Shown one piece after another: positions 26,201-29,200 of a DNA stretch of 64,000 bases (positions are counted from its first letter, which is position 1; each line of letters starts with the position of its first letter). The stretch comes from Nymphaea colorata. Its lineage: Eukaryota > Streptophyta > Magnoliopsida > Nymphaeales > Nymphaeaceae. The DNA lies in assembly GCF_008831285.2 (NCBI RefSeq), contig NC_045147.1, forward strand, positions 22,096,981 to 22,160,980. Reading direction: 5' to 3'. The notes beneath the pieces were generated by a model. The model made no database searches and had not been told where the DNA came from. It worked only from the letters and a program-made list of their open reading frames with translations. Made by a program: the position numbers and the translations under genes.

Positions 26201-29200
26201 ATCCATATCCCGATCCAATATGATTTTGATATTAGAGTCGTACACTGGGTCTGGTGGCATCTTTTGTAATTTTTGTTTAAGTTCTGTTGTATTTTAGTCA
26301 AGGGCTTTCTATTAAAAGGCATTGAGGATTAGGGCACCATTCTAACAAGAAACATATTTATCGATATGCCATCTAGCGTCAACATTTTTCAACAAAAAAG
26401 GTGATTCTTAAGAGAAATAGTTCTATTCATTTCAAATGTACGGTCAGAAGTCCAAATAACAATTCTGATATTACCATTCTGAACTGCAAAAGTGATGCTG
26501 GAAATAGTAATTTCTGTGTTAAATGCATGAAGTTCTTTAGGTTTATCATGGCAAAATGAATGCAGTCGTCATGTTGATGAGACACCATATTTTCTTGTAT
26601 CCATTTGGTGGTGAAATTTCAGAGATGAGAGTGATTCTGACCTTTTGTTTATTTTACTTCCTTGTGCGTGCAGCTTCCAGCAACTCTCACTCCAGGTGTT
26701 ACAGTTGTTGTGTGCCCATTACTTTCACTTATTCAAGACCAGATTATTACTCTCAATATCAAGTTTGGAATAGCGGCAACCTTCTTGAATTCCCAACAGA
26801 CCACCTCTCAGGCAATGGCAGTAATGCAAGAGCTGAGGAAAGTATCTTTCAGTATTGCATGTTATAGACAATTTACATAAGTGTCATGCCTATTTATGTT
26901 TGCTTGTGTCTATGTCCATGTAGATAGACATAAACACTACGTAGACAAGAAAGCACATGCAGAACTATGTCACATAAGTGCAAGTGCCGGTACGGGTACG
27001 GTATAGGTGCCGGGTATGGAGCATCTTAAAAAAATTTGCGTATGGAAACACACCAGATTTATTTATAATTTTATATTTCTATATGTATATAACAAAAAAT
27101 AAGATTTTACACAAGCAGAACAACACATTTATGATTCAAAATTTATAGATTCAAACTTATAGTTTTGTCTAGGAAATCAAATACAAACAATATATGAAAA
27201 TTCAAGCTAGGCATATGCAGTGTAAATTTGTAGTTTTTGTGCTTTAGATAATATCTAAGAACCAAGCTACACAAACACAGTAATGCCCAATTAAAAAAAA
27301 AAGCCCAACCGTTGGACGGTCTTGGACTTGGTCAAGTTTGGGTGAATATAAAAGGGGGCCGATTTGATTGCGGGTATGTTGACTGTACCGTTATGGCCTT
27401 GACCATACTTGAGGCTATACTGGTGCCTGTACCGTTATCCTACTGGTTCGGCATGAGTGCTGCTCCATTTGGCCAGTGCCCATGTGACATGGATGCACAA
27501 ATGCCTTGGGGCTTGCAAAGATTAAGACTTTCTCCTGCATAGGTTGCGCACAAGGCTAACAACCTTTTTTCTCCTGCTTCCAGGAAATGTAAGCCATCAT
27601 GCAAGCTACTGTATGTGACCCCTGAAAGGATAGGTGGTAACATCTCTTTTCTGGAAATATTGAGGTGTCTGTATGAGAAGGTAATCTCTCCCTTTGCTAA
27701 TGTTCGATTTGACAAATGGTATATCATAATGCCATAGGGACTTTGTTGGACTGCATCATTATAGTTCATTACGTAAACGTTATCATTATCACGACAGGGA
27801 CAACTAGCGAGATTTGTTATTGATGAAGCACACTGCGTAAGGTAACCTATGTGGATTTCAGTTGCCTCGATGAAGGTGATCTTGACGAGGTGATTTTAAG
27901 TGCACAATTTTGTCAATAATTGTTCGACAAATGGGATTTGTTACATTTATTCTCCTGGCGTTCCACAGCCAGTGGGGTCATGATTTTCGCCCTGATTATA
28001 GAAGACTGAGTTGCCTTAAGCAGAATTTTCCTCGAGTTCCTATAATGGCACTTACTGCAACTGCTACTCAGGCAGTCCGTAAGGTACCTCTAGAATGTCA
28101 CTGTTCATTTTCCATGTTTCTTGTAATTGGCATCTAATATTATTAATGGCATTCAGGATATATTGAACGCTTTGAAAATTCCCCATGCTTTGGTTCTTGA
28201 GACTAGCTTTGACAGGCCAAACCTTACGTACGAAGTTATTGGTAAAAGCAAAGATTCTTTGAAGCAGCTTGGTCAACTGGTTAAAGCACGTTTTCTGGGT
28301 GTTTGTGGAATCATTTACTGCCTCTCAAAGAATGAATGTGTTGATGTATGTAACTATTTGAAAGACAAATTTCATGTAAGAATAGTTTATTACCATGCGG
28401 GATTAGCTGCCCGTGAACGAATTGCTGTTCAGAAGAAATGGCATTCAGGAGAGGTCCATGTTGTATGTGCTACCGTCGCGTTTGGGATGGGAATAGACAA
28501 GCCTGATGTTGTGAGTTAAAATTGTTCTTCTGTTTCAATTTATGCTTTTCTTGACTGGCTTGTGTTACTTATTCTGAAGATAATTTGATAAAATTTTGCA
28601 GCGATTTGTCTTACATAATACAATGTCCAAGTCAATTGAGAGCTATTATCAAGAATCAGGGAGAGCTGGCAGGGACAATCTTCCAGCTTCATGCATTGCC
28701 CTGTACCAGAAAAAGGATTTCAGTCGGGTTGTGTGCATGTTGAGGAATGCACAAGGATGTAAGAGTGAAAGCTTTAGAACTGCTATGAATCAAGCAAGAA
28801 AAATGCAGACATATTGCGAGCTAAAGGTATCCTGCTTCGCTTTGCAACTTCAGTGCATGAATTAATGAACTTATCTGCATATATTATTTAGGTTGAATTA
28901 CAGAAATTAGATTGTTCAACATGGAAGATATTACCAACTCTAAGCTTGATGCCTTGATGGTCGGTTGGTAGAGGTCATGCTCAATGGGATGCAGGTGTGC
29001 AAGACAAGGGCACACATGGTGATGGAATATGCTGTAATCCTTATGTATTTGCTTGATAAAAATTTACTAAATCATAAACCATTAAAAACAAGTTTTAAAG
29101 ATCTTCATTATATATGTTAATAATCTGAGATCTGTAAAGTGGATTAAAACACACACAAATAATTCCAAAGAACCATGCATGAAGAGAATTTGTCAAATTG

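Follow-up and report, generated by a model that had tools for sequence, protein, structure and literature searches.

Intron 4 of a RecQ-type DNA helicase gene in Nymphaea colorata is probably a genuine and functional U2-type spliceosomal intron that begins with GA and ends with AG. The intron occupies positions 26838..27583 on the + strand (746 nt; GAG|GAAAGTAT ... CTTCCAG|GAAATG) of the window, by which we mean the whole stretch of 64,000 nucleotides analysed here (C10:22096981-22160980), and GA-AG is the favoured reading of its borders. Three explanations had been offered for the unusual donor: a tolerated GA-AG intron, a loss-of-function allele and a sequencing error. The first is the best supported. 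The reading frame, the eight GT-AG introns of the same gene, the U1 duplex, the rarity of such a match, the AG before the intron with A at +3, the U2 acceptor, the lengths of BLM and of paralogues and the plant precedents all speak for it. Nothing points to either of the other two, and the exons and other splice sites are intact. Because GA-AG introns occur so seldom, software that predicts genes or maps reads often discards them, with the result that intact genes are mis-annotated or called broken. The RecQ intron 4 matters mainly for correct gene annotation. It also provides a clean test case for the rescue of a GA donor, with extended pairing to ordinary U1 and with U1 loci that were found to be normal at the critical base. 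Most likely, this intron adds to a known and very rare kind, and what stands out is that its pairing with U1 is extended while the U1 loci found include no variant.

Structure and identity of the RecQ gene

The plant RecQ-type helicase gene runs from 23208 to 30619 on the + strand. Its 10 coding exons lie at 23208-23319, 23594-23985, 25442-25702, 26674-26837, 27584-27680, 27798-27841, 27969-28083, 28157-28510, 28602-28826 and 30509-30619, and when spliced they form a single open frame of 624 aa. The product is a RecQ helicase. The Pfam domains DEAD (90.7 bits), Helicase_C (70.5 bits) and RecQ_Zn_bind, the RecQ zinc-binding domain (45.0 bits), were each found above the cut-off. The TIGR00614 recQ_fam model, which covers the helicase part only, scored 503 bits (cut-off 219.8), and human BLM was the nearest solved relative (386.6 bits, phmmer). 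Eight of the nine introns are GT-AG, and intron 4 is the sole exception. Its borders read ...CAAGAGCTGAG|GAAAGTATC... at 26838 and ...CTTCCAG|GAAATGTAAG... at 27584. The coordinates of the preliminary description were exact: exon 4 ends with GAG CTG AG at 26837, the intron would start at 26838 with GAAAGT, which puts A at 26839, the following GT lies at 26842-26843, and the CAG and AAG acceptors end at 27583 and 27593, respectively.

The GA donor and its pairing with U1

The GA 5' splice site GAAAGTAT (26838..26845, +) is complementary to U1 at -2, -1, +1 and +3 to +8, with mismatches at +2 (A26839) and -3. Each GA of both strands of the window was scored against the 11-nt 5' end of U1. Two of the 8360 GA dinucleotides matched at 9 or more of the 11 positions; one is the donor of intron 4, and the second is at position 8944 of the window. 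The GA donor of intron 4 is more than a chance look-alike. The energy of its duplex with U1 was -8.0 kcal/mol in RNAduplex, which may choose its own register (for example, for intron 2); the gene's eight GT donors ranged from -5.4 to -7.5 kcal/mol. The GA donor forms the stronger duplex because +7 and +8 (AT) carry the pairing to the extreme 5' end of U1. After the donor was shortened to nine bases, GAGGAAAGU, the energy was -5.7 kcal/mol, the same as that of the GC form, and the GT form reached -10.4 kcal/mol. Among the GA sites of the window with at least seven U1 matches, three others were lower in energy (-8.5, -8.3 and -8.2 kcal/mol), which counts against the GA-AG reading. Energy alone is therefore not unique, and it is the combination with position and frame that counts.

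The other properties of the site were also those of a good donor. A base-frequency score that left out +1 and +2 and used plant donor frequencies was 7.05 for the donor of intron 4 and -1.67 to 6.19 for the eight GT donors. Exon 4 ends with AG and A stands at +3 (GAG|GAA), matching the rule for proven GA donors. The closest GT upstream is at 26821, 17 nt off. A competing weak GT donor, AAA|GTATCTTTC (26842..26850, +), begins 4 nt downstream of the GA, and its U1 duplex had an energy of -3.6 kcal/mol.

These features suggest how the intron would be removed. Ordinary U1 snRNA would bind AG|GAAAGTAT by nine pairs reaching +8, and the A.A mismatch at +2 would be tolerated. The AG at the exon end would fit U5 loop 1 and the AAG at +3 to +5 would fit the U6 ACAGA box, so that the GA site could pass to U5 and U6 and be cleaved before the G of GA. 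Donors have been described as falling into two classes by their pairing with U5 or U6 (PMC11732430); AG|G.AAG is strong for both and could for that reason survive a bad +2. The branch site, the pyrimidine tract and the CAG, all of standard type, would then finish the splicing, and the resulting mRNA would code for an intact RecQ helicase. The sequence itself shows the site, its complementarity to U1, the intact frame, the acceptor and the normal critical base of the U1 loci found; we infer the snRNA steps, the splicing of intron 4 in vivo, its efficiency and the ancestral base. The GA likely arose when one base changed at +2 of a donor that had been GT or GC.

It is unlikely that the change is instead a loss-of-function allele, in which T-to-A at +2 kills the donor and either intron 4 is retained or GT 26842 is joined to the CAG, with a premature end. 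Such products would be truncated as expected: retained intron 4 runs into a stop, and GT 26842 with AG 27583 gives ELRKEM*. A title from the FGFR literature uses "dead-end" as the label for GA donors, and a recent loss-of-function mutation would look identical in a single genome. Against this explanation, no further damage is present in the ten exons or at the other splice sites. Apart from +2, moreover, this donor outranks all others in the gene, which is expected of a compensated site and would be a coincidence for a random hit; by our own estimate from base frequencies, about 4% of donors are this good.

U1 snRNA genes in the genome

The N. colorata genome (407.8-Mb assembly, 783 contigs) was searched with the Rfam U1 model. 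The results showed 17 loci, of which 15 were above the cut-off; scoring covered 42 of the 5946 first-look candidates, and rarer variants may be missed at this depth. Thirteen of the 15 start with ATACTTACCTG, and the remaining two carry a difference at position 1 or 3 and otherwise agree with it over these 11 bases. A variant U1 with U at position 7, which would pair with the A at +2, was present in none of the 17 loci, and all 15 above the cut-off keep A7. Service of the GA donor by a variant U1 was rejected within the scope of these 17 loci, and the count of zero also weighs against the GA-AG reading. Our tentative view, held with less than even confidence, is that compensation has made the GA donor a stable splice site, which normal U1 holds through pairing to +8 in a genome that lacks a variant U1. 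If this is true, summed complementarity to U1, U5 and U6 would suffice to predict GA-AG introns, with no special machinery needed, and what is probably an early-diverging flowering plant would retain a GA-AG intron in a DNA-repair gene.

Some features of the U1 loci themselves may be recorded. Twelve U1 genes (L145-L156) are located on two large contigs, C1 and C2, and several of them closely adjoin. The sequence TAGTCCTGTAT occurs no more than 90 nt upstream in 14 of the 15 loci above the cut-off (L145-L160 set). L160, which is below the cut-off, has an altered U1 5' end and is pseudogene-like.

Acceptor and branch site

The acceptor of intron 4 is of the standard U2 type. A pattern scan of 27500-27582 found a probable U2-type branch sequence, CTAAC (27556..27560, +), whose A27559 is 24 nt before the last intron base. 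The polypyrimidine tract and CAG acceptor follow at 27564..27583 (+), with 13 pyrimidines among the 14 bases at -17 to -4, and the CAG (27581-27583) is the first AG past the branch. An alternative acceptor at 27592..27593 (+) belongs to an AAG at 27591-27593, 10 nt past the CAG. It has 7/14 pyrimidines and is in frame with GT 26842, with removal of Cys-Lys.

A U12-type intron was considered, since GT 26842 reads GTATCTTTC. The U12 consensus sequences are RTATCCTTT for the donor and TTCCTTRAY for the branch. The donor matched at only 7/9 positions, a score that 57 of the 3368 + strand GT sites reach or exceed (the GTATCTTTC site included), and the best branch match was 6/9. This candidate was rejected.

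Competing joins and fit to the family

The predicted spliced junction of the GA-AG reading (or of GT-AA) is GAGCTGAGGAAATGTAAG, and the GA-AG product contains the KCK codons AAATGTAAG. It had been claimed that only this join keeps both helicase frames, which was too strong. With donors taken from 26690-27559 and acceptors from 27000-27674, 33 GT/AG pairs keep the frame without a stop. The pair nearest in length, GT 26842 with AG 27593, gives 622 aa, minus Cys-Lys, and its predicted junction is GAGCTGAGGAAACCATCATGC (ELRKPSC). The nearest GT does behave as had been described, since 26842 leads to ELRKEM* with the CAG, whereas with AAG 27593 it stays in frame and two residues are lost. Skipping of exon 4 or exon 5 singly causes a frameshift, whereas their combined length is divisible by three.

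It is improbable that the canonical splice from GT 26842 to AAG 27593 is the one in use, giving a 622-aa helicase with two residues fewer in a length-variable loop. The frame is kept, and the loop would have the length seen in all 51 parsed bacterial loci (of 80). The donor is weak (-3.6 kcal/mol), and the AAG (7/14 pyrimidines) is 10 nt past a CAG with 13/14, so that we would expect mostly use of the CAG, and truncation. The scores of relatives are divided, and the earlier statement that the GA-AG product fits the family holds in part: BLM, RECQ1, RECQ5 and two of the three countable paralogues support its length, whereas a product shorter by two residues suits bacterial RecQ, WRN and RECQ4 as well as the family models.

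With the GA-AG product, the phmmer score rose by 4.4 bits for BLM, 3.9 for RECQ5 and 1.8-1.9 for RECQ1. With the shorter product, it rose by 4.6-4.8 bits for bacterial RecQ chains, 3.6-3.7 for WRN and 4.3 for RECQ4, and the family models TIGR00614 (5.3 bits), TIGR01389 (5.1) and Pfam DEAD (1.0) also gained; for bacterial RecQ, WRN, RECQ4 and TIGR00614, the advantage of the 622-aa splice is thus 3.6-5.3 bits. These differences are partly noise, because Helicase_C, which is outside the junction, also shifted by 2.8 bits. The preference of bacterial RecQ, WRN, RECQ4, TIGR00614, TIGR01389 and Pfam DEAD, together with that of the paralogues L185 and L186 described below and with the loop length of the 51 parsed bacterial loci (of 80), counts against the GA-AG reading.

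The number of residues between two fixed anchors was 27 in BLM, 27 in the GA-AG product and 25 in the shorter product. In paralogues of the same genome it was 27 (L182), 27 (L185) and 22 (L186), and in bacterial loci it was 25 in 51/51 that parsed (29 of 80 unparsed). These 80 loci were kept from at least 594 relatives, and all bear prokaryote titles. Counted more loosely, from DQ to PE, the number of residues was 41 in all 67 parsed bacterial loci (of 80), 44 and 42 in the two products, and 21 to 43 in 38 of the 56 loci on viral contigs; in this count, the extra residue sits upstream of the junction. No plant gene emerged when prokaryote and viral contigs were scanned for an orthologue.

The paralogues came from five regions of the window genome, taken as six stretches, among 27 matches of which several are the window gene itself. 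The junction was readable in L182, L183, L185 and L186 and not in L187. In pairwise alignment, the GA-AG product was favoured by 10 for L182 and by 9 for L183, the latter ungapped at the junction. The gapped alignments favoured the shorter product by 6 for L185, despite its GA-AG-equal length, and by 1 for L186. An ancestral donor was sought in these paralogues and none was found: L182, L185 and L186 are intronless there, and the exon of L183 begins about five residues earlier. The closest nuclear relatives thus support the GA-AG length, but other family members have the shorter loop, which might also work.

AGGAAA at both ends of intron 4

The two ends of intron 4 carry a 6-nt direct repeat, AGGAAA, with the 5' copy at 26836..26841 (+) and the 3' copy at 27582..27587 (+). 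This point had been overlooked and is new here. Seven placements of the junction, from AG-CC via GA-AG to GT-AA, yield identical mRNA, and cDNA is therefore unable to separate GA-AG from GT-AA. The repeat is a trap for anyone who relies on cDNA alignment alone to choose between the two, and the protein argument likewise fixes the mRNA and not the terminal dinucleotides of the intron. The ends of the other eight introns of the gene share 0-3 nt. Given AG|G on both sides, the chance of a shared run of at least 6 nt was 1.9%, as estimated by pairing at random the 897 AGG trinucleotides that the window contains. The repeat may be a product of the same change as the GA donor, because AG|GTAA would have only AGG in common.

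There is accordingly a slight chance that the same mRNA is made with other borders, either as GT-AA (26842 to 27587) or by SDR-type joining via AGGAAA. The length of the shared run would suit this. SDRs of 4-8 nt have been described at unusual plant junctions (PMC3591102), and 3' splice sites are said to be seemingly more flexible than 5' sites (PMC7072748). However, GT-AA would require both a weak donor and AA as the acceptor, whereas GA-AG requires one odd base in an otherwise ideal intron, and GA-AG is favoured for this reason. As for SDR-type joining, the published SDRs are G/C-rich, unlike AGGAAA, and the review that describes them warns that they may be reverse-transcription artefacts (PMC3591102). 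An SDR-type junction would have its repeat where conventional splice signals are missing; the 6-nt repeat is there in intron 4, yet the acceptor signals are conventional. An assembly error, with T as the true base at 26839, is very improbable: a single substitution in this one sequence would give back the consensus AG|GTAAGT, but the long-read assembly of N. colorata is described as short-read polished (PMC7015852), which should leave few substitution errors, and the 1.9 kb of coding sequence shows no other error.

Known GA-AG introns

GA-AG introns have been annotated in several plants. Table 2 of PMC10668435 gives 14/161,774 introns in Arabidopsis, 11/104,094 in Trema, 8/102,537 in Parasponia, 6/151,615 in Lotus and 0/222,653 in Medicago. 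By our own sum of that table, this is 39/742,673 annotated introns across the five plants, and the rarity of the class counts against the GA-AG reading. Among the open-licence papers listed, none dealt with a plant RecQ gene that has a non-canonical intron.

The closest precedents are from flowering plants. In Arabidopsis, AGY1 (intron 4) and PPI1 (intron 6) have GA-AG introns that are reported as confirmed by Sanger-sequenced cDNA amplicons (PMC5716242). They resemble the RecQ intron 4 in their borders, and both genes are expressed; the GA-AG form of AGY1, unlike the RecQ case, is one strongly expressed isoform beside another (PMC5716242). Both are cDNA-confirmed genes other than RecQ, whereas the RecQ intron 4 is known from genomic sequence. 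Intron 12 of Trema orientalis SYMRK has a GA donor that is described as about 95% spliced and functional, although it was initially read as a sign of pseudogenization (PMC10668435). As in the RecQ gene, the GA donor differs by a single substitution and the gene structure is otherwise conserved (PMC10668435). For SYMRK, however, the donor of relatives (GC) is known and splicing has been demonstrated, while the RecQ intron 4 comes from one genome.

Outside plants, a similar pattern is described for the copepod Eurytemora affinis. At its GA and GG donors, the exon invariably ends with AG and +3 is A with few exceptions, these introns must be removed for a full-length protein, and the single intact U1 begins with the normal 5' sequence (PMC5714493). 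The RecQ intron 4 shares the AG, the A at +3 and the need for removal. In E. affinis, such introns make up about 12% of the introns in ten focus genes and are species-idiosyncratic (PMC5714493), whereas in the RecQ gene it is one of nine. In contrast to the normal U1 of that paper, another reports one variant among five U1 copies of the copepod (PMC7072748). The human FGFR1-3 genes also have a GA 5' splice site in a U2-like GA-AG intron. It is alternatively spliced and reportedly depends on a GT 6 nt upstream (PMC4176328), whereas in the RecQ gene one GT is 17 nt upstream and another 4 nt downstream. An FGFR-type GA donor was rejected for intron 4, where the canonical GT 6 nt upstream is missing, and this absence is a further point against the GA-AG reading.

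Genome context of the intron

A dispersed repeat, probably a transposon remnant, is located in intron 4 at 26965..27490, a span that marks the outer limit of the genome matches. It is clear of both splice sites. At least 40 further matches to it were found in the genome, with 70-89% identity, and 7 of 40 were re-aligned; no convincing target duplication was seen in the re-aligned matches. The ends of the repeat are loosely inverted around ATGTCACAT (13/20 bases). The possibility that AGGAAA is a transposon target duplication was rejected: the repeat is inside the intron, its matches touch neither border, and the acceptor is normal U2. A second copy of the DNA of exons 4-5 was absent from the 41 matches listed, for which 40 of 149 candidates were scored.

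Two observations concern other sequences. Contig C288 of the assembly (G000:C288:13515-14514; L169, L170), which is not one of the large numbered contigs, contains RecQ-like open frames that are intronless over the match and 30-35% identical to the window protein, and they are possibly bacterial contamination of the plant assembly. In the window, the open frames at 32613-33194 (-), 37250-38041 (+), 40552-41334 (-) and 43049-43936 (-) have in common a C-terminal motif similar to KADEFIAxFxxQxxLxRxxS...E, and, judged by eye, the four resemble members of a single small plant gene family that are clustered here.
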